Shown: one piece after another, positions 1,884 to 33,544 of the stretch
Layout of the letters: each line of letters starts with the position of its first letter
Position numbering within the stretch: position 1 is the first letter of the stretch
From: a virus
Reading direction: 5' to 3' (one strand)
Virus record (IMG/VR): IMGVR_UViG_3300030060_007423
Coordinates: 106,802 to 170,801 of that record
Length of the DNA: 64,000 nucleotides
Notes under the pieces: generated by a model
Database searches by the model: none
Told to the model about the DNA's origin: nothing
Seen by the model: the letters and a program-made list of their open reading frames with translations, nothing else
Position numbers and translations under genes: made by a program

Positions 1884-3161
1884 ATGGCTAAAATAAAAAA
1901 AGGTAGTATTGTAATACCTAAAATCGGTGTACACAAAGGCGAAAAGCACACTGTAATTCATGACTTTGGAAATGGTACATATAATATACAACCAATGGGA
2001 TTTAGAAACAAATACCACTTAGGAGCAGCTGGTGCAAAGGCAAGTGACTTAAAATTGGTTAAAGAAGACAAAGACATTGGCCATCAAGATGATGAACCAA
2101 ACATGTTAAAATCCACTGCATTGGAAATAATGGAGTATGGTAAAAAACTTATGGATAAGTTAGATAAGTATGATGATATGGAAGAAGAAGTTGATTTTCC
2201 TAATTGGTGGCAATCAAAGCTTATTATATCAAAAGAATATCTACAAAAAGCTTATCACTATCTAGATTCTGAAGAAAAAACTAAAGAAGATAAAGTAGAT
2301 GAATCAACAGAAACTGATGAGCTAAAAGTATTACTACGTGATTTAATACAGAAAGAAATGGAAGAAAGAGCCGTAGTATCTAAAATACCATCAGCTTATG
2401 GATATGACGAAGATGTAGCAGGAATATCTGTTAATGGTTCAGATGTTGAAGAATCAACAAAAGAGTATGGTAAATCTCTCAAAAAAATAGCATTGGATAA
2501 ACAATTAAAAATGTTATCTAAAAAAGATAAAGAAACATTGTTAAAAATTGCAAAACTAATGGGTAAAGAAAAACTCAAAGAAGTTATTGAAAAAGCCAAT
2601 AAATTAAATGAAGCAAACAAGTACCCAACAGTTTCAAACAAGTTTAAGAACGCATTAGACAGATTACCAGAAAAACATTTTCATAGAAAAGGTGTAAAGG
2701 CATTAATCAAAAAACTAAAAGAAAAAGACCCAGAAGCTGCAATGGCATATACAATGGCCGCATTTGGTTGGATGAAGAATATGAAAGAAGGGTTTGCTAG
2801 TTATGCACAGCAAAAAGCAGCATACGCTAGTGGATACAAAGGCAAAGGAAAGAAAAAAAGAAAAAAAGAATCTATGGCTAGTCACCCAGTTGTTAAACAA
2901 GGATTTGCAATAGGTAAAGCTAGTACTGTTGGTGGTGAGGAAATGTCATCTGCATCTGGAATATCTGATAGTGATGAAGACCCAACAGATAATCATTCTA
3001 AAAAAGTTAAAGAAATTGTAAAAGCTGAACTTAAAAAGGCAGGTCTTGAAGATGATTATAATATTTTAGATGTAATCACATCCTTAGGTTTAGAAAATAC
3101 AAATGAGTCAAAATTTATTAAAGTAGTTAGGGAAGAAATAAATAAACAGTTGGAGTTGTAA
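1884..3161 (+). CDS. Lys-rich hypothetical protein, possibly virion-associated
   Basis: Residues ~1-60 look like a small beta-rich (SH3/KOW-like) module. The middle is acidic and helical. A Lys/Arg cluster (GKGKKKRKKE) lies near residue 320, followed by a Ser/Asp-rich stretch. Such mixed charge is seen in DNA-contacting capsid cargo, but no family was recognised. It sits two bases after the PAP2 gene, and its stop overlaps the next start, indicating translational coupling. Confidence 0.65.
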   Translation: MAKIKKGSIVIPKIGVHKGEKHTVIHDFGNGTYNIQPMGFRNKYHLGAAGAKASDLKLVKEDKDIGHQDDEPNMLKSTALEIMEYGKKLMDKLDKYDDMEEEVDFPNWWQSKLIISKEYLQKAYHYLDSEEKTKEDKVDESTETDELKVLLRDLIQKEMEERAVVSKIPSAYGYDEDVAGISVNGSDVEESTKEYGKSLKKIALDKQLKMLSKKDKETLLKIAKLMGKEKLKEVIEKANKLNEANKYPTVSNKFKNALDRLPEKHFHRKGVKALIKKLKEKDPEAAMAYTMAAFGWMKNMKEGFASYAQQKAAYASGYKGKGKKKRKKESMASHPVVKQGFAIGKASTVGGEEMSSASGISDSDEDPTDNHSKKVKEIVKAELKKAGLEDDYNILDVITSLGLENTNESKFIKVVREEINKQLEL

Positions 3162-3883
3162 TGGTTTTAAGAATGACATTTAGTGGTAGCCAGCAAATCA
3201 TTGAAGAAGTCTGTGAACATTGTGGTGAAAAGATTGAAGATGTACAACACAGTGAAATAATAGTACAGAAAGATACTGACAAGCGAAGATTGAGAATGCA
3301 GGATAGGGATGGACAGAGAAGAGAACTATTTAAGAAGGCAGATAAAATTGCAGGTATAAAGGCATCAGCATCTGCACAAGGAATGTATGATAGAGCTATT
3401 GATGGAGATGACTTAAAGTATAGTGTACGTGCAGAAAGAATGTGTAGTTCAAGTGATGGCACAACTACTCAATTTTGTTATAGGGTTACAAATCCAAAAT
3501 TTTTAGCAAAGACTAAGGCAGATGGAACAAGTCTTAGTGCTAGTTTTTTTGATCCAAATGAACCATTAATAAACGAAACCGGTTCAAAGGTTGGATTAGA
3601 TAGGCGAGGAAATGTTGTTAGATTAAAAGAGGAAACTAAAGAAGGTGGTAGTAGAAGACAAAAGGGAGCCTTTGGAGTTACTTGGTTTGCAAATTTAGAT
3701 GCTAGGCGACAAAAAACTGTGTTGGAACAATATCGTGGTTGTAGCTACATGTTAAGATTAGGTGCACAACAAGCAAGTGCTGAAGATGTCCCAGGATTTC
3801 AAAAAGGTGAAATGGGTGAAGGATTGGCAACATTTAGATCTTTAGAAGAATTTAAGTTAGCACACAGTAGATACTGTAGTTAA
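3161..3883 (+). CDS. Hypothetical protein with N-terminal CxxC
   Basis: A 240-residue protein. C-E-H-C near residue 18 could be half of a zinc site, but no clear second pair is seen nearby. The body is rich in Arg, Lys and Gly, with scattered Cys. The start ATG overlaps the previous stop; a second ATG four codons in is an alternative. I do not recognise the family. Position within the virion/accessory operon is the only functional hint. Confidence 0.6.
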   Translation: MVLRMTFSGSQQIIEEVCEHCGEKIEDVQHSEIIVQKDTDKRRLRMQDRDGQRRELFKKADKIAGIKASASAQGMYDRAIDGDDLKYSVRAERMCSSSDGTTTQFCYRVTNPKFLAKTKADGTSLSASFFDPNEPLINETGSKVGLDRRGNVVRLKEETKEGGSRRQKGAFGVTWFANLDARRQKTVLEQYRGCSYMLRLGAQQASAEDVPGFQKGEMGEGLATFRSLEEFKLAHSRYCS

Positions 3884-18386: not shown

Positions 18387-19592
18387 ATGAAAAATGTAAT
18401 CTTAAAAGCTGGTCTTAACGAGAGTGGTAAACCAGTATTGACTGACAAGGTTGGCAATCAGTTTGAATGTCCTGTAAAGGATAAAGCCAACAAACAAAAA
18501 TTAACGTGGGCTGTTAAAAAAGAAGCCTATGTAAAAGTAATAATGAAGGAGGGCGGAGCCATGTCCTACTCAGTATCTAATAGTAGTACTGAAAAGGATT
18601 GGACTAAAGATGCCACGTCTATATTGACAGACCAGTGGTTGAATAAACCTGCTGCTAATGTACCTGCTGAACAGGCTGAGGTAATGGCATTCATTCAGAA
18701 ATCTCCTGAGTTAAAACCAGATACTCTTAAGATGCAAGACCTTAAATGGAAATATCTTGTTAGGTCTGCAATGAGAGGTAAAAATATTATGATGACTGGT
18801 CCTGCAGGATGTGGTAAAACTATGGCAGCTAAAACTGTTGTGAACGCATTAGACAGACCAGAATTTTATTTCAACCTTGGGGCAACTCAAGATCCTAGAG
18901 CTACCTTAATTGGTAATGTCCACTTCAATAAAGAGAGTGGTACGTTCTTCTCTGAATCAATGTTTGTGAAAGCAATACAGACTGAGAATGCTGTAATACT
19001 CATGGATGAGCTTTCACGTGCTCACCCCGAGGCTTGGAATATATTAATGACTGTATTAGACGAAGGTCAGAGATACTTAAGGTTAGATGAAGCTGATGGC
19101 TCTCCAACTATTAAAGTAGCTCCAGGTGTAACATTTATCGCTACTGCCAATATAGGTAATGAATATACAGCGACAAGAGTTATGGACCGAGCGTTATTAG
19201 ACAGGTTTATTATTGTAGAGATGGATACTCTAAATGCTTCTGAGGAGTTTGAGTTGTTAACAAAACTATTTCCTAATGTGGATACTAAAACAGTTAACGC
19301 CATATCTGAAATTGCTCATGCTACTAGAGTTGAGGTTAAGAGTGAAGTTGCGAGAATCTCTACTTCTATTTCTACCAGAGCTTGTGTTGAAATGACTAGC
19401 CTTGTTTACGACGGGTTTAGTTTAACAGAAGCTGCTGAGGTTATTATGTATCCACAATACGATGATGCGGGTGGAGCTGATAGCGAAAGAACATTCGTAA
19501 AACAACTTGTACAGAAATTCTGTGACGATGGTACCGATGAAGATTTATTCAACACTGAAGATGTTGACGGTGCTGATGACAACCAGCAATAA
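18387..19592 (+). CDS. MoxR/CobS-like AAA+ ATPase
   Basis: MMTGPAGCGKT holds Walker A with K144. VILMDELSRA is Walker B, ATANIGNEY is sensor 1 and MDRALLDRF is the arginine-finger region. The order and spacing fit the MoxR/CobS clade. An N-terminal ~120-residue domain of unknown type precedes the motor. MoxR ATPases work with VWA-domain partners as remodelling chaperones or metal-insertion machines, and the next gene encodes a VWA protein. CobS-like genes are known in marine T4-like phages. A hairpin follows the stop. Confidence 0.88.
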   Translation: MKNVILKAGLNESGKPVLTDKVGNQFECPVKDKANKQKLTWAVKKEAYVKVIMKEGGAMSYSVSNSSTEKDWTKDATSILTDQWLNKPAANVPAEQAEVMAFIQKSPELKPDTLKMQDLKWKYLVRSAMRGKNIMMTGPAGCGKTMAAKTVVNALDRPEFYFNLGATQDPRATLIGNVHFNKESGTFFSESMFVKAIQTENAVILMDELSRAHPEAWNILMTVLDEGQRYLRLDEADGSPTIKVAPGVTFIATANIGNEYTATRVMDRALLDRFIIVEMDTLNASEEFELLTKLFPNVDTKTVNAISEIAHATRVEVKSEVARISTSISTRACVEMTSLVYDGFSLTEAAEVIMYPQYDDAGGADSERTFVKQLVQKFCDDGTDEDLFNTEDVDGADDNQQ

Positions 19593-19610
19593 GCGACGAT
19601 TGCTAAGAAG

Positions 19611-19645
19611 GGGGGTGGACATTTAGAGCCATCCCCTATTCTATT
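19611..19645 (+). terminator. Hairpin terminator after the AAA+ gene
   Basis: GGGGGTGG pairs with CCATCCCC (8 bp with one G-U) around a ~10-base loop, followed by TATTCTATTGTT. The downstream T-tract is interrupted, so efficiency is uncertain. Two GTTAATAACTTT copies follow. Confidence 0.6.
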
Positions 19646-19696
19646 GTTAATAACTTTGTTAATAACTTTAGAAAATAACTATGAAATAATTTTTAT

Positions 19697-19723
19697 TTCC
19701 CAACAATAATAGTTATATTTATA
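19697..19723 (+). promoter_or_regulatory. TTTCCCAA-type phage promoter element before the VWA gene
   Basis: TTTATTTCCCAACAATAATA then GTTATATTTATA, preceded by paired GTTAATAACTTT copies at 19646 and 19658. It gives the VWA gene its own transcription start, separate from the ATPase. Confidence 0.6.
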
Positions 19724-19756
19724 TTATAAATAACGGATTAAACTAATAGAGATACT

Positions 19757-21766
19757 ATGACAAATTATTCAAGCTTTTGGTTAGATGACAATTTTGACAA
19801 TGACATTGACATTCTGACAGGTGAATCAATCGTGAAACCTGGTAAGGACCTCATCAAGCTAGCCGGTTATCAAAGAGCAATCGCTAACTTTGTTAACATC
19901 GTAACAGGTAAACACGTTCCTGTTAAATTCAAACAAAATGGTAATAGCTATACTGATGGCAAATCTATCGTGATTAGCTCAAGTCTAAAGGACAAGGATT
20001 TCGACCCTGCTGTTGGACTTGCTCTTCACGAAGGTAGCCACATATTGTTGTCTGACTTTCAATTCCTTAAAGACTTAGAGAGCCACATACCTGCTGACAT
20101 TACAAATACAGTAATGATTAAATATGATTATGATAGATACAACGCTAACTATCATATCTTAAATAATCTAAAAGATTTGTTAAACATTGTTGAGGACAGA
20201 CGTATTGACAACTACGTGTTTAAGTCTGCTCCTGGTTATAAAGGTTACTACCACTCAATGTATGACAAATACTTTAACTCTAAAATTATAGACAAAGGAT
20301 TGGCAAGTTCTGAATTTAGAATCCCAACCTTTGAAGCTTATATGTTCCGTATCTGTAACATTACTAATAACCATAGAGACCTCAACGCATTACCTGGTCT
20401 AAGAAAGATATGGAATCTAATGGACTTAAAGAATATCGGTGATGTAAAGAGTACTGAAGAGGCCTTTCAAATTGCTTGTGAAATATATAAAGTAATTGAA
20501 GAAAACATTGAGGCTCCTAAACCAGAGGATAATGATTGTGATGGCAATTGTGATGGTGATGGTAATGAACAACAAACTGAGAATAGAGATGGCGGTACTC
20601 CTAAAACACCAGAAGGAGAATCTGATGACGATGGTTCTACTACAACAGGTACTGATTGTACTAATGGTAATACCACATCAACTATTGACTTAGAGGATTT
20701 AACTGACAAACAAAAACAACAGTTAAAGAAAGCTATTCAAAAGCAAAAGAGTTTCCAGGATGGAGATATTAAGAAAGGCGGAATGAGTAAGAAAGATGCT
20801 AGTTCATTAAATGCTATTCAGCAAGGAGATGTTGAGGTTACTAATGTTGGTAATGGAGTAGACGGATGGAGAAAGACTAGTGGTGGTACTAACTGTATTG
20901 TTATTAATGGTATTACTAAAACATTGATTGATGAGAATCCATTTGACGTGTTTATCAACAAAGACTGGTATGGTAGTAGAATGGAGCAGTTTCAACACTC
21001 TGTAGACAAAGGACTTGTATTAGGACAAAAACTTGGTAGAAAGTTACAGGTTAGAAACGAGGAGAACAGCCTTAGATACACACGATTGAATACAGGAAAG
21101 ATAGATAAAAGATTGATTGCTAGTTTAGGCTATGGTGCTGAGAGTGTATTTGAACAAGTATTTACTAGCAGCCATAACGATGCCAACGTACATATCTCAG
21201 TAGATGCTAGTGGTAGTATGAGTGGCCGTAGATATAACAAGGCTATGACTACCTGCGTGGCTATAGCTAAAGCAGCCAGCATGGTTGGTAATCTAAACGT
21301 TCAGATAAGCTTCCGTACTACAGTGGAAAGTGGTGGCACTAACACACCATGTATAGTGATAGCGTATGACTCTAGAAAAGACAAGATCGTAACGATTAAA
21401 TCACTATTCAAATACTGTGTAACTCTAGGGACAACACCAGAAGGACTATGTTTCGAGGCCATTCAAAAACACATGGTACAGAGCAATGGTAGTATGGATA
21501 GCTACTTTATAAACCTCTCAGATGGAGAACCTTATTTTGAGAACCGAGATATTCAATATTGGGGCCAGACAGCTGCTAGCCATACCGCAAAACAAGTGAA
21601 AAACATGCGTGGTGGTGGTATAGAGGTACTGAGCTACTATATAGATGGTGGTAGCGACGTTAGTGCCCAATTTAAGACTATGTATGGTGCCTCTAGCGCT
21701 AGTATAGATACAAACAACCTTACCCAACTGGCCACTACTCTAAATAAATTATTCCTTGGCCAGTAG
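19757..21766 (+). CDS. Metallopeptidase-like/VWA-domain protein (partner of the AAA+ ATPase)
   Basis: H91-E92-G-S-H95 within an N-terminal domain is a zincin motif, with NIVEDRRID (residues ~130-140) as a candidate third-ligand region. This layout resembles the DUF2201-type putative metallopeptidase plus VWA proteins. Residues ~235-300 are acidic and Gly/Thr-rich linker. The C-terminal VWA domain has the MIDAS motif D483-A-S485-G-S487, with later Thr and LSDGE elements. CobT/ViaA-type VWA proteins are loaded by MoxR/CobS ATPases. Whether peptidase activity exists is open. Confidence 0.82.
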   Translation: MTNYSSFWLDDNFDNDIDILTGESIVKPGKDLIKLAGYQRAIANFVNIVTGKHVPVKFKQNGNSYTDGKSIVISSSLKDKDFDPAVGLALHEGSHILLSDFQFLKDLESHIPADITNTVMIKYDYDRYNANYHILNNLKDLLNIVEDRRIDNYVFKSAPGYKGYYHSMYDKYFNSKIIDKGLASSEFRIPTFEAYMFRICNITNNHRDLNALPGLRKIWNLMDLKNIGDVKSTEEAFQIACEIYKVIEENIEAPKPEDNDCDGNCDGDGNEQQTENRDGGTPKTPEGESDDDGSTTTGTDCTNGNTTSTIDLEDLTDKQKQQLKKAIQKQKSFQDGDIKKGGMSKKDASSLNAIQQGDVEVTNVGNGVDGWRKTSGGTNCIVINGITKTLIDENPFDVFINKDWYGSRMEQFQHSVDKGLVLGQKLGRKLQVRNEENSLRYTRLNTGKIDKRLIASLGYGAESVFEQVFTSSHNDANVHISVDASGSMSGRRYNKAMTTCVAIAKAASMVGNLNVQISFRTTVESGGTNTPCIVIAYDSRKDKIVTIKSLFKYCVTLGTTPEGLCFEAIQKHMVQSNGSMDSYFINLSDGEPYFENRDIQYWGQTAASHTAKQVKNMRGGGIEVLSYYIDGGSDVSAQFKTMYGASSASIDTNNLTQLATTLNKLFLGQ

Positions 21767-25156: not shown

Positions 25157-25540
25157 ATGGTAAAAAAGAAAAAGCATAAATTCAAAATAGGCGACAACGT
25201 AACATTCAAGTTCTTTGATGGTGGTACATACACTGGCGTTGTTGACAAGCTTTCATATATGGGAGAGCTTACAGGAAATGTAAACTATCAGTTACCACAA
25301 ATTAGAGTAGCTGTTAAAAATAAAAATGTCAAGTACCCTTACACTTATTATCCCATTAGCGAGCATTATGTACTTAAACGCAATGGAAAGGTTAACCCTA
25401 ATGCAATCAACCTTCCAAGCAAAGATAATAAGCCCAAGAGGAAGGCTAGTAGTAAAATTGCAAAGACTAATAATAAGTCTGAATTGCAACAAGCAATCGA
25501 TAAACAAAAAGAATTCTTAAATCACAATTATGAAAACTAA
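25157..25540 (+). CDS. Hypothetical protein with SH3-like N-terminal barrel
   Basis: FKIGDNVTFKFFDGGTYTGV is typical of a small SH3/KOW-like beta-barrel opening. The C-terminal ~45 residues are Lys-rich and likely disordered, suggesting nucleic-acid contact. The last 11 bases overlap the SET-domain gene. Confidence 0.55.
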   Translation: MVKKKKHKFKIGDNVTFKFFDGGTYTGVVDKLSYMGELTGNVNYQLPQIRVAVKNKNVKYPYTYYPISEHYVLKRNGKVNPNAINLPSKDNKPKRKASSKIAKTNNKSELQQAIDKQKEFLNHNYEN

Positions 25541-25910
25541 ATTAGAAATACATAAAGGTGTACACGTCAAAAAAAGTAAAGGTAGAGGTTGGGGTGTATT
25601 CACTAGTGAAAAAATAAATAAAGGAGATATTGTAGAGGAGTGTATTATTCCCTATGATGTTTTACCTATTGGTTCAACTGCATTACCAAACTATAGATAT
25701 GTTTGGCCAAACCGTACAAATTATACTGCATATTGTATAGCGCTAGGCTTTGGTTGTATATACAATCACAATGAAGAAAGTCCAAATATTGATTGGGACC
25801 TTGACCCTGAAGAAAGAATAATGCGGTTTACAGCAATAAAGGATATTGATGCAGGTGACGAACTAATGTTTGACTATCAATCTCCAGTATTAAACTTTGA
25901 AACTAAATAA
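25530..25910 (+). CDS. SET-domain protein (putative lysine methyltransferase)
   Basis: GRGWGVFTSEKINKGDIVEE is the SET N-terminal G-x-G block. FGCIYNHNEESPN gives the N-H-x-x pseudoknot motif. DAGDELMFDYQ is the final (D/E)-E-L-x-x-D-Y motif holding the catalytic Tyr. The 126 residues correspond to a minimal SET core without pre- or post-SET zinc domains. Such proteins use S-adenosylmethionine to methylate lysines. A host or phage target cannot be inferred from position. A GIY-YIG gene follows. Confidence 0.82.
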   Translation: MKTKLEIHKGVHVKKSKGRGWGVFTSEKINKGDIVEECIIPYDVLPIGSTALPNYRYVWPNRTNYTAYCIALGFGCIYNHNEESPNIDWDLDPEERIMRFTAIKDIDAGDELMFDYQSPVLNFETK

Positions 25911-27553: not shown

Positions 27554-27868
27554 ATGGCAAGAAATAAATATCGTAGACAGCCTTGGAAAAAACAACAGAA
27601 AACAGTTCATAACCAACACAAACCATTTAATCCTGGTAAGTATGGTAAACTATGGGCATCAATGAATTGGGAGTGCGAATGGGGTAGAACACCTCAAGGA
27701 GATGCACAAGGACCAGTTATTGGTAAATTATGTATTGGAGGACAACAGTTTGAATTAACATGGACAGAATGTAACAGATTAATTGAAACTTTAACCGATG
27801 CAAAACACCAACATAAAGTTGGAACATCAATGGGGTTTGAAAGAGGACACGGAACTTATAGAGGCTAA
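27554..27868 (+). CDS. Hypothetical basic protein
   Basis: 104 residues with a basic N-terminus and a compact C-terminal part (GKLCIGGQQFELTWTECNRL). Similar-looking small proteins occur in marine phages, but no function is known to me. Confidence 0.6.
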   Translation: MARNKYRRQPWKKQQKTVHNQHKPFNPGKYGKLWASMNWECEWGRTPQGDAQGPVIGKLCIGGQQFELTWTECNRLIETLTDAKHQHKVGTSMGFERGHGTYRG

Positions 27869-27879
27869 TATTTATATAA
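27867..27879 (+). promoter_or_regulatory. Short-form ATATTTATA promoter-like element
   Basis: AATATTTATATAAA overlaps the preceding stop and is followed by an AAGGAG ribosome site for the next gene. Confidence 0.4.
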
Positions 27880-28138: not shown

Positions 28139-28418
28139 TGCGTCTGAACAAATAGACGACTTAAAAAGTGTTGGCGGTAGTGATGGACTATTTAAGGCAA
28201 TTACAAATATGGGTGAAAAGAATCTAGACTATATGGAAAAAATTGAATCAATAGAAAGACTAATGATTACAACAGAAAGTTTAGATTCTGACATTCATAA
28301 AAATGTTATTGTAAGTTCAAAAGAATATTTATTACAGAATGGTACATTAACCAAAAACATGATGTTGAGCTTAAACCAAATATATACATATTATAAAAAC
28401 ATGCGAGGTAATATATGA
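28089..28418 (+). CDS. Hypothetical helical protein
   Basis: 109 residues, all-helical by appearance, no motif. It overlaps the preceding gene by 50 bases and shares ATGA with the next one. Confidence 0.6.
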   Translation: MAKANQHVKKVTERLLNASEQIDDLKSVGGSDGLFKAITNMGEKNLDYMEKIESIERLMITTESLDSDIHKNVIVSSKEYLLQNGTLTKNMMLSLNQIYTYYKNMRGNI

Positions 28419-28606
28419 TGATAATTCCAGAACAATACAAAAATGATTTGGATAAAATATATGAAAGAACTAAAAACTCTAATGAAAAAATGTTAATGGA
28501 ATTCAAAAAGTATTTTATGAATGTTGAACCAAAGGAGTTAAATTCAGACTGGGCATGGGTAGCAACACAATGTTATCATGTATATAAAAATAAATCTGAC
28601 CGCTAG
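28415..28606 (+). CDS. Small hypothetical protein
   Basis: 63 residues, charged and helical, ending in a Trp-rich stretch. A second ATG directly follows the first. Its 3' end touches the start of the tmRNA gene. Confidence 0.55.
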   Translation: MMIIPEQYKNDLDKIYERTKNSNEKMLMEFKKYFMNVEPKELNSDWAWVATQCYHVYKNKSDR

Positions 28607-28825
28607 TACTTATGTCAGCTGCATTCTTGGACCCGGGTTCGAATCCCGGCATCTCCACTAAAACCCATTATGATATGGGGATGACACGGATTTGACAGGA
28701 TGATAAGAGCATAAGGAAGGTCACCGCAACAACTGGCGAACAAGTTGAAATGGCGATGGCAGCGTAGTACGCTCCCTGACCCGAACGGTATAAAAGAGGT
28801 CATGTCGTAAAAACCTCGGAGGATG
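28604..28825 (+). ncRNA. ssrA: Circularly permuted (two-piece) tmRNA
   Basis: The T-arm (CCGGG-TTCGAAT-CCCGG) and acceptor 3' strand CATCTCC plus A lie upstream. The 5' acceptor strand GGGGATG at 28677 lies ~20 bases downstream; the two strands pair over 7 bp with one G-U. After GGGGATG comes GGATTTGACAGG, close to the conserved tmRNA 5' region. The tag frame starts at GCA 28726 and reads ATTGEQVEMAMAA then TAG, with an AA terminus typical of proteolysis tags. GAGGT/ACCTC after the tag fits a pseudoknot helix. AAGA...CATAAG can pair with CTTATG...TCTT upstream as P2. This piece order is that of permuted tmRNAs. It would rescue stalled ribosomes. Confidence 0.87.
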
Positions 28826-28842
28826 GTAGGTAAACTATAATT

Positions 28843-29586
28843 ATGAGCATAGAAACAAAATATTTTTCAATTGACGATTTATATAACGTAGATAACAAAT
28901 CTTCGTTTTGGAAATTTATAGAGGGCGAAGTAAAAGTTGCTTTAAGTAAATCTTCAATGTCAAGTTCAAAAAAAGCAGATGCTCTTAATCTATTTAAGAA
29001 ACAATATATTAAAAAGTTTTTTATAAGACATACTAAATCACCAAGTGATTATAATAAACCTTGGGATTTAGATAAATATGACCTAGAGTCAATTAAAAAT
29101 AATACAGATGGTCAATGGGCACCACCACCTAATGCTGATGACTATAGGTTTGATTTAGAAAATGCTCAATATGTAATTGAAAAATTTATATGGATGCAAA
29201 TACACCCAGATGATAGAAGGGATTTATTTGATAATGATATTGATAAATTTGATGACTGGGTTGTAACATTATCTGAATCACAAATAGATGAAGTTGTACA
29301 AAAAATTCAAAATGGTGAAAGACTAGGTGATCTTGATTATGAAAGTATAAAGGATTCACTATATGAACTTGATGATGGTACAATCAGAGTATTTAAGATA
29401 GACGGATTAATGATTATGTCTTCACTAAATAAAGATTCGCTGGAAACAGCATGCGTAAAAATCTTTATGAAGAAAGGTATAACATTTAAGTATAGAACAA
29501 CTGAAAACTATAAAGGAAAAACTGTACACTCCTATATATTTAGGATTGACGGACGTAATGACAATAAAAATGACAATATGTCATAG
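28843..29586 (+). CDS. Hypothetical acidic protein
   Basis: 247 residues, Asp-rich, no recognised motif. It starts ~20 bases after the tmRNA and could share its transcript. The C-terminus repeats NDNKNDN. Function unknown. Confidence 0.6.
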   Translation: MSIETKYFSIDDLYNVDNKSSFWKFIEGEVKVALSKSSMSSSKKADALNLFKKQYIKKFFIRHTKSPSDYNKPWDLDKYDLESIKNNTDGQWAPPPNADDYRFDLENAQYVIEKFIWMQIHPDDRRDLFDNDIDKFDDWVVTLSESQIDEVVQKIQNGERLGDLDYESIKDSLYELDDGTIRVFKIDGLMIMSSLNKDSLETACVKIFMKKGITFKYRTTENYKGKTVHSYIFRIDGRNDNKNDNMS

Positions 29587-29694: not shown

Positions 29695-30129
29695 ATGGGA
29701 AATTATTTTTTACATGAGCGGTTGTTTCCAACCGACTTATTTTTCAAAAACTTTTTTGATACACAAACTGAGTTTCAATCGTTTGCAGATGTTAAGCCAC
29801 AATATCCAGTTGATATTATGGTAACAGATTATGCACTAACGTTTGATATTGCATGTGTTGGTTTGGACAAAAAAGATATAACATTAGACGTTACTGATAA
29901 TACCTTACGGGTTATCTATGAAAAACCAAACATTGAATCAAATCCATCTGATGAAGATGCAGGTGAATATATCCATAGAGGTATTACTCGGAAGAGTTTT
30001 AATATGGGTTGGAAAATTGCACCACGGTATGATTTGAGTCAAATAGAAGCAGTTATGAAAAACGGATTGTTAAGTATAACAATTCCATTGTTTGAAGAAG
30101 CAAAACCAAAAACAATTAAAATTAAATAA
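29695..30129 (+). CDS. Hsp20/alpha-crystallin small heat-shock protein
   Basis: Residues ~35-135 form an alpha-crystallin domain: PVDIMVTDYALTFDIACVGL, DITLDVTDNTLRV, then FNMGWKIAPRYDLSQIEAVM and the conserved GLLSITIP near the C-terminus. KTIKIK is the usual I-x-I anchor. An ATP-independent holdase, of the type also carried by cyanophages and other T4-like marine phages. TAAGGAGAT gives a strong ribosome site. It is enclosed by a perfect 13-bp inverted repeat. Confidence 0.9.
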   Translation: MGNYFLHERLFPTDLFFKNFFDTQTEFQSFADVKPQYPVDIMVTDYALTFDIACVGLDKKDITLDVTDNTLRVIYEKPNIESNPSDEDAGEYIHRGITRKSFNMGWKIAPRYDLSQIEAVMKNGLLSITIPLFEEAKPKTIKIK

Positions 30130-32701: not shown

Positions 32702-32919
32702 TTTACATTAGAGGTACGTATTCCAAAGAAGTCCAAAAAATTGAATTAGATGTTACTGAAAATCTAGATGTTGATGACTTTAAGAGAGTATGTAAAAGGT
32801 TAGCAAGTGTTTTAGGATATAGTCCAGAAAGTATTAGTGAAGCATTTGATAATGAGCCAAGAGAATCTAAAACACCAATAAAGAAAATATTAAAAGATGA
32901 CTATAAGCGACAAAAATAA
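32689..32919 (+). CDS. Small hypothetical protein
   Basis: 76 residues with a beta-hairpin-like N-terminus and helical C-terminus. It overlaps both neighbours (13 and 23 bases). No family match. Confidence 0.55.
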   Translation: MDKIIYIRGTYSKEVQKIELDVTENLDVDDFKRVCKRLASVLGYSPESISEAFDNEPRESKTPIKKILKDDYKRQK

Positions 32920-33544
32920 TTTATACGACGAGCCTGTAACAAAGGAGACTCCGAAAAAAGAAAAGGAATCTGAACCAAAGGTTGTATCAATAGATAACGA
33001 CCAAATTTTATATCGTGAAATAGATTATGCTATGGACATTGGTGATAGTGTAATTTATCTTTGTGGTGAAATAGGTGACTTTGCTTCTTTTGATTTTATG
33101 ACACGGTGTAGAACAATTCTTAAGACCCGTGAAGAGAATGATAACAATCCAATTAATGTAATATTGAATTCACCAGGTGGTGACCTATATGAAATGTTTG
33201 CAATCATAGATTATATGTCAACATTAAATGTGGATGTAAATATAATTTGTAGAGGCCAAGCAATGAGTGCAGCAGCAATGATACTCGCATGTGCAACAGG
33301 CCAAAGAATAGCAAGTAAACATTCAACAATAATGTTTCATGAAGCGTCCGCATTTCAAGTTGGTAAACATTCAGACATACAGGCAGCGGCAAAGTATCAA
33401 GATATTCTAGAGAACAATTGTAATATCTTACTAGGTGAAAAAACAAAAAAAGATTCTAAGTGGTGGTCTGAAAAAACAAAAACAGATATGTTCTTAACAC
33501 CAAACGACGCATTAGAATTAGGTATAATCGATAAAATAATATAA
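32897..33544 (+). CDS. clpP: ClpP-like serine protease
   Basis: The catalytic triad is readable: S124 in GQAMSAAAMIL, H148 in TIMFHEAS and D197 in KTDMFL, followed by ALELGIIDKII. NSPGGDLYEM is the conserved substrate-binding strand/loop. Residues 1-30 are a charged extension before the core. It should form a peptidase chamber. No phage Clp ATPase is visible nearby, so it might replace host ClpP or act in prohead processing. It overlaps the previous gene by 23 bases. Confidence 0.88.
   Translation: MTISDKNNLYDEPVTKETPKKEKESEPKVVSIDNDQILYREIDYAMDIGDSVIYLCGEIGDFASFDFMTRCRTILKTREENDNNPINVILNSPGGDLYEMFAIIDYMSTLNVDVNIICRGQAMSAAAMILACATGQRIASKHSTIMFHEASAFQVGKHSDIQAAAKYQDILENNCNILLGEKTKKDSKWWSEKTKTDMFLTPNDALELGIIDKII

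Follow-up and report, generated by a model that had tools for sequence, protein, structure and literature searches.

A permuted, two-piece tmRNA gene with Bacteroidota-like sequence signatures in a T4-like phage record

Locus and anatomy

The DNA analyzed here (64,000 nucleotides, called the window throughout) covers positions 106802 to 170801 of a virus record in IMG/VR (IMGVR_UViG_3300030060_007423; 170,801 bases [170.8 kb]), whose encoded T4-like portal and baseplate proteins mark it as a T4-like phage. Here, we report a permuted (two-piece) tmRNA gene on the + strand of the window, at about positions 28598 to 28836. Its parts and the neighboring features, in window coordinates, are as follows.

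27868 to 27875, + strand: promoter-like box ATATTTAT, about 730 bases upstream of the tmRNA and directly before a small open reading frame (ORF)
28415 to 28606, + strand: 63-residue ORF (translation), function unknown; its counterpart in neighbor contig L073 is ORF 3039-3227
28598 to 28660, + strand: acceptor piece (RF04321 alignment; compensatory changes in its H2, T-stem, and acceptor pairs in 64 relatives)
28598 to 28601 (GACC), 28609 to 28614 (CUUAUG), and 28622 to 28629 (CAUUCUUG), + strand: 5' strands of H2, acceptor piece
28633 to 28649, + strand: T-stem and loop, CCGGG TTCGAAT CCCGG, acceptor piece
28650 to 28656, + strand: acceptor 3' strand CATCTCC, followed by A73 (28657) and then CTA instead of CCA
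28661 to 28676, + strand: intervening sequence
28677 to 28836, + strand: coding piece (RF04321, ARAGORN, covariation; 3' end approximate, from conservation with L073)
28677 to 28683, + strand: acceptor 5' strand GGGGATG, coding piece
28688 to 28696, + strand: D-arm analogue with GGATTTGAC, coding piece
28696 to 28722, + strand: 3' strands of H2, coding piece
28725 to 28746, + strand: resume-codon hairpin, AACU (28731-28734) with AGUU (28743-28746)
28735 to 28767, + strand: tag frame GGC GAA CAA GTT GAA ATG GCG ATG GCA GCG TAG, read as GEQVEMAMAA and stop (10 residues; ARAGORN, codon-like substitution)
28761 to 28773, + strand: tag-end helix AGCG/CGCU, over the tag end and stop codon
28785 to 28817, + strand: downstream pseudoknot, ACGGU (28785-28789) with (A)UGUCGU (28803-28808) and GAGGU (28796-28800) with ACCUC (28813-28817)
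32897 to 33544, + strand: ClpP-family protein (Pfam CLP_protease and PDB ClpP matches), about 4 kb downstream of the tmRNA

An earlier note, made by reading the sequence, had placed a circularly permuted phage tmRNA at 28604 to 28825; the locus was correct, and the gene proved slightly longer at both ends. The Rfam search that it advised gave matches to tmRNA_permuted (RF04321; gathering cut-off, 47 bits) at 28608-28767 (+ strand; 65.6 bits; E value, 2e-10) when the whole 64-kb window was scanned and at 28598-28722 (66.7 bits) in a local scan, and ARAGORN independently called a permuted tmRNA (tmRNA*) at 28566-28858. The gene order is acceptor piece, 16-base intervening sequence, and coding piece. 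As the note had described, the T-arm and acceptor 3' strand lie upstream, CATCTCC pairing with GGGGATG in a tRNA-Ala-like acceptor stem (7/7 pairs, G3.U70 wobble present). CCA is not encoded, the bases there being ACTA. Neither a T-arm nor an acceptor 3' half was found in the 1.5 kb downstream of the gene, so the one-piece alternative that the note had raised does not apply. The intervening sequence, the least conserved stretch both between the window and L073 and among the relatives, is presumably removed in processing, as in known permuted tmRNAs.

The rest of the coding piece is made up of the resume hairpin, the tag, the tag-end helix, and the downstream pseudoknot. This last, noticed earlier as a pseudoknot-like helix after the tag, is kept in relatives: its stem 1 was 98.7% paired among 64 of them, and stem 2 was read from the window sequence and the relatives. 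The tag-end helix is likewise kept (UGCC/GGCA in L073). The resume codon is placed in the loop of a covarying, conserved hairpin, unlike in textbook tmRNAs; a weakly supported 3-bp stem (CGC 28725-28727 with GCG 28736-28738; 30 members) may form a small pseudoknot with it. A two-strand co-fold of the window sequence was no better than shuffles (39/200 as low).

The 63-residue ORF, which was without a Pfam match, runs with its stop codon into the 5' end of the acceptor piece. Contig L073 has the same gene order and the same tag as the window, its protein after the tmRNA is 71% identical, and its RNA is nearly invariant outside the intervening sequence; at the tag end, the differences are compensatory in the helix and simultaneously silent in the tag. 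No riboswitch family was found beside the window gene by local Rfam scan, and blastn of the gene against cultured phages gave no useful match. The same window also encodes an AAA+ (MoxR/CobS-like) and CobT-like pair and SET-domain, HSP20, and PAP2 proteins (18387-21766, 25530-25910, 29695-30129, and 655-1881).

The ATATTTAT box looks like a phage promoter element: 41 of its 52 + strand copies in the record were intergenic (8.6% expected), with strong strand bias, and 50 of 62 relatives had it at a constant position just ahead of the RNA, where about 0.02 copies would be expected per relative. It is absent directly before the window copy; the nearest plausible box, at 27868, precedes a small gene, which makes co-transcription of the window tmRNA likely. 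Written as (TTG)ATATTTATA, the box occurs on the + strand and between genes at 27868 and other sites of the record.

Relatives, tag, and resume codon

Relatives were collected by scanning IMG/VR with patterns for the tRNA-like part, blind to the tag (71, 77, and 92 stretches matched); 41 stretches were drawn by an exact motif covering some of the tag and are biased accordingly. For this reason, all statements about codons use tag-blind members (T-arm and D-loop patterns), although those patterns themselves fix some tRNA-like letters. The pattern and motif draws together yielded 85 distinct sequences with a TTGAC D-loop, a handful without the tag of this branch, giving about 80 relatives in IMG/VR, a sample that may omit records very near the window. 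The branch signature is a UUUGAC D-loop, (U)AACU or UAAUU before GGC GAA, a G-initial tag, and mostly no encoded CCA. ARAGORN made no call for some members (L021 and L061), meaning that in annotation some of the branch goes uncalled. The gene missed in L061 (4916-5121; 64.4 bits) is a permuted tmRNA with a possible two-residue tag (GCA GCA TAA). A copy of the branch tmRNA also occurs at L279:4250-4473, in a contig binned into an archaeal (Nitrosopelagicus) metagenome-assembled genome; this is probably a mis-binned phage contig, and the copy bears on published reports of archaeal tmRNAs (19 permuted; PMC11915505).

Covariation was assessed in 64 aligned relatives with 10-residue tags, for which RNAalifold predicted 45 pairs; a few motif-drawn rows are included, and motif invariance in this alignment is partly by construction. 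Paired cells made up 97.3%, and 20 pairs (253 cells) had changed on both sides. The covariation values were reached by 0 of 500 shuffles, a control that does not allow for relatedness, and slid controls, which do, were 37 to 47% paired. G3.U70 was invariant (64/64). The AACU/AGUU helix around GGC was 99.1% paired, with U-A to A-U changes, and AACC/GGUU and AAUC/GAUU replace it in further relatives.

GGC 28735 is the most likely first codon of the tag, which then reads GEQVEMAMAA. The GCA start preferred in the earlier note (28726; a 13-residue frame, ATTGEQVEMAMAA) is readable, but the stretch from D-loop to GGC varies among relatives (34 to 41 and 45 bases) in steps that are not multiples of three, and GCA is lost in many of them, such as L021, L158, and L186; GGC is therefore the best candidate for the resume codon. 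Among 57 tag-blind relatives, the five final residues read [M/L/Y]AMAA; the AMAA amino acids never changed, although both Ala-Ala codons and the GCG/GCA codon varied silently, and all three stop codons were used. Pairwise codon differences in tag codons 5 to 10 were synonymous in 2,300 cases and of other kinds in 999, whereas codons 1 to 4 (GGC GAA CAA GTT in the window) had no synonymous change. Constraint thus acts on the protein at the tag end and on the RNA at the tag start.

Lineage, novelty, and host

Permuted tmRNAs have been described from three main bacterial clades. The earlier note had named the alphaproteobacterial, betaproteobacterial, and cyanobacterial forms, but the window gene bears sequence signatures that are Bacteroidota-like and outside these lineages. 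Among the corresponding Rfam models (RF01849, RF01850, and RF01851), beta_tmRNA scored 48.1 bits, under its cut-off of 84, and the alpha and cyano models were not among the matches listed, from which lower clan overlaps are left out. The branch signature is also found in two Bacteroidota-type one-piece genes, those two being the whole comparison: UUAACU or UUAAUU before GGC GAA precedes the tag GENNYALAA, which the Parabacteroides distasonis gene and a one-piece gene of fecal origin both encode. The P. distasonis tmRNA shares with the window gene the UUUGAC D-loop, the G-E tag start, and the lack of an encoded CCA, and its CAAUUAACU|GGC GAA context is identical to that of relative L173; it differs in being a full one-piece, nonpermuted gene with another tag body. 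Permuted phage genes of the TTCGAC type had the AACUGGCGA context in 0 of 79 loci, and CCA was encoded in 40 of 78 of them versus 9 of 84 branch members. A sequence listed as a P. distasonis plasmid (L316; NZ_OY725762.1) contains bglX along with a tmRNA of standard form; it may be a piece of the chromosome.

The sampled Bacteroidota tmRNA genes are one-piece. Permuted tmRNAs resuming at glycine are, however, annotated in GenBank in the cultured Chryseobacterium phage MA9V-3 and the crAss-like phages cr50_1 and cr114_1, so Bacteroidota phages do carry the permuted form. These copies resemble that of the window in being permuted with glycine-initial tags, and those of cr50_1 and cr114_1 also in UUUGAC (cr114_1 further in AUAACU|GGC); they differ in belonging to other phage families, in their tag bodies (GNVIDINKYVAKLEVAA, GNNFVTDYTAIGA, and GNFYVTDYTRIAA), and in their longer intervening sequences. 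The intervening sequence of cr114_1 contains a tRNA-His gene (L369:654-726); a similar arrangement with tRNA-Ala has been called unique (PMC11915505). Tentatively, the branch may be a further, independent permutation, distinct from the alpha, beta, and cyano ones, which would have arisen in Bacteroidota phages from the one-piece gene of their hosts and diversified into a phage-controlled rescue RNA with its resume codon in a conserved hairpin and tags of 10 to 37 residues. The permutation may instead have arisen in a Bacteroidota clade outside the sampled ones.

The earlier note had called a phage copy in two-piece order unusual, which was overstated because such genes are abundant in IMG/VR and already published: ARAGORN suggested two-piece tmRNAs in 53 phage genomes (PMC9004378). 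With the marine examples, such as Methylophilales phage Melnitz and pelagimyophages (PMC9004378), the window gene shares the two-piece form and a T4-like aquatic phage as carrier; the Melnitz tmRNA is alphaproteobacterial in type and linked to a glutamine riboswitch (PMC9004378), whereas the window gene is Bacteroidota-like. Compared with the RF04321 family (PMC11915505), gene order, tRNA-like domain, G3.U70, two-piece form, and a tag ending Ala-Ala-stop are the same; the lack of an encoded CCA, the UUUGAC D-loop, and the glycine resume codon inside a conserved hairpin are different. What is new is apparently a big, undescribed phage branch with Bacteroidota-type signatures: no paper describing it was found in a search that took in few subscription journals or preprints. 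Such a branch would add a lineage and suggest that phages spread or invented the permuted form.

The host is probably a member of the Bacteroidota. By portal protein, the closest cultured phages were Microcystis phage Mel-JY01 (52%), Flavobacterium phage immuto (52%), and Rhodothermus phage RM378 (34%); ARAGORN and pattern searches found no tmRNA in Mel-JY01 or in the examined stretches of immuto. Shine-Dalgarno-like sequences preceded 56 of 143 ORFs of the record (9 in control positions) versus 5 of 127 in immuto, which argues against a Bacteroidota host; in contigs of the relatives with 36- to 37-residue tags, the count was 1 of 44. A Shine-Dalgarno user, for example, a cyanobacterium or a Verrucomicrobiota member, with the Bacteroidota-like features inherited or convergent, is thus a lesser but real prospect, to which the report of Mel-JY01 from Microcystis and the existence of the Verrucomicrobiota tags GNNEEMLMAA and GEEQFALAA also point. 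Weighing the other way, the remaining near cultured relatives infect Flavobacterium and Rhodothermus, and Bacteroidota one-piece genes combined UUUGAC with AACUGGC, which none of the listed Verrucomicrobiota genes did. The record also encodes bS21 outside the window, not far from the portal gene (L327:677-1015, record positions 20677-21015); lake myophages with Bacteroidetes as predicted hosts encode it too (PMC9723584), and Flavobacterium ribosomes lacking host bS21 regain Shine-Dalgarno recognition (PMC9976891). The bS21 gene and the Shine-Dalgarno use, set against almost none in immuto, could reflect phage rewiring of translation initiation. A Verrucomicrobiota host, considered from the tag GNNEEMLMAA, was weakened by a survey of 79 genomes and 30 ARAGORN calls, in which the tags were mostly of the ANEEFALAA type, the D-loops listed being TTCGAC. 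Literature on the tag GENNYALAA, DUF805b, and Mel-JY01 held nothing informative.

Proposed function and alternatives

In tmRNA action, RNases trim the RNA, CCA is added, alanyl-tRNA synthetase (AlaRS) charges it, and SmpB delivers it to stalled ribosomes; the product then receives the tag, the ribosome is released, and proteolysis disposes of the product. We regard 28598-28836 as a functional, phage-maintained permuted tmRNA gene for ribosome rescue during infection by way of host SmpB, AlaRS, and ClpXP (probability, about 0.7). This reading is based on the anatomy and gene order, the covariation, the coding selection at the tag end, the resume context shared with Bacteroidota, and the box before most relatives.

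Processing, charging, SmpB use, proteolysis, timing, and benefit we infer as follows. A single transcript would be cut by host tRNA-processing enzymes into acceptor and coding pieces, held together through the acceptor stem and H2; CCA would be added after cleavage, and host AlaRS would charge the RNA through G3.U70. Host SmpB is assumed because the record, which may be incomplete, gave no PF01668 match, and with host SmpB the tmRNA would enter ribosomes stalled on broken or stopless messages. Translation would then switch to GGC 28735, append (A)GEQVEMAMAA, and stop at TAG, and the -AMAA end would target the product to ClpXP-type proteolysis. The gain to the phage would be continued ribosome turnover at a time when mRNAs in the infected cell are being cut; for marine phage tmRNAs, the proposed role is keeping translation running or protein turnover (PMC9004378). 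The earlier note had connected the tmRNA with a phage ClpP. A ClpP-family protein is indeed encoded, but among the PHROGs it best matches a head maturation protease, so a circuit from tag to ClpP would be speculation, and the link is weak, consisting of co-occurrence in the phage.

The phage tmRNA might instead outcompete that of the host for SmpB, its tag being poorly degraded or directed to a different protease; phage proteins would thereby escape, or host rescue would be blunted. The tag body does differ from the sampled Bacteroidota tag GENNYALAA, in line with the earlier impression of an unusual tag, branch tags diversify in sequence and length (10 to 37 residues), and a phage tmRNA lacking a tag (DS6A) is reported to inhibit the cell's own tmRNA in E. 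coli (PMC11915505). A decoy would not need the strong protein-level conservation of -AMAA, however, which fits kept ClpXP-type recognition, and we consider this explanation unlikely. It is less probable still that translation resumes at GCA 28759 and adds Ala-Ala alone, the stretch upstream being structured RNA. Such two-residue tags have been reported from a few bacteria (PMC11915505), a GCN about 11 to 12 bases past the hairpin would be at the usual distance after PK1, and the codons around GGC to GTT change in RNA-like fashion alone; yet codons 5 to 8 show silent and conservative coding changes ([M/L/Y]AM, GCG/GCA, and CTA/TTA), and GGC stands in the same context as in Bacteroidota one-piece tmRNAs.

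Tags of 36 to 37 residues also argue against a two-residue tag. Found in L204, L205, L207, L217, L256, L259, L263, L292, and L304 (e.g., GKQVNTAIASTFAFLSSIRSLSQETVVAKEQVFAMAA), they are read from the same GGC frame, are mostly conserved at the protein level, and end AMAA or LMAA. That the window gene is a chance-captured, unused copy of a host ssrA seems very improbable, even though mobile DNA often integrates at tmRNA genes (PMC11915505) and tmRNA fragments are known in prophages (PMC9004378): the covariation disfavors it, structure, tag coding, and promoter-like box are kept across many distinct phage contigs, and the order is permuted although the sampled Bacteroidota genes are one-piece.

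On the preferred reading of a working rescue RNA, the branch supplies a ready-made set of natural tags (10, 15, and 36 to 37 residues) under selection, mostly behind a promoter-like box, and a handle on rescue in lytic infection; the 36- to 37-residue tags may have a function beyond marking for proteolysis. A separate, unrelated instance of long, conserved tags was seen in permuted phage tmRNAs at six TTCGAC-type loci (L026, L027, L030, L039, L046, and L063), where tags of 28 to 31 residues share a common core, ADTFDFTAMSFTGNTV...ALAA.
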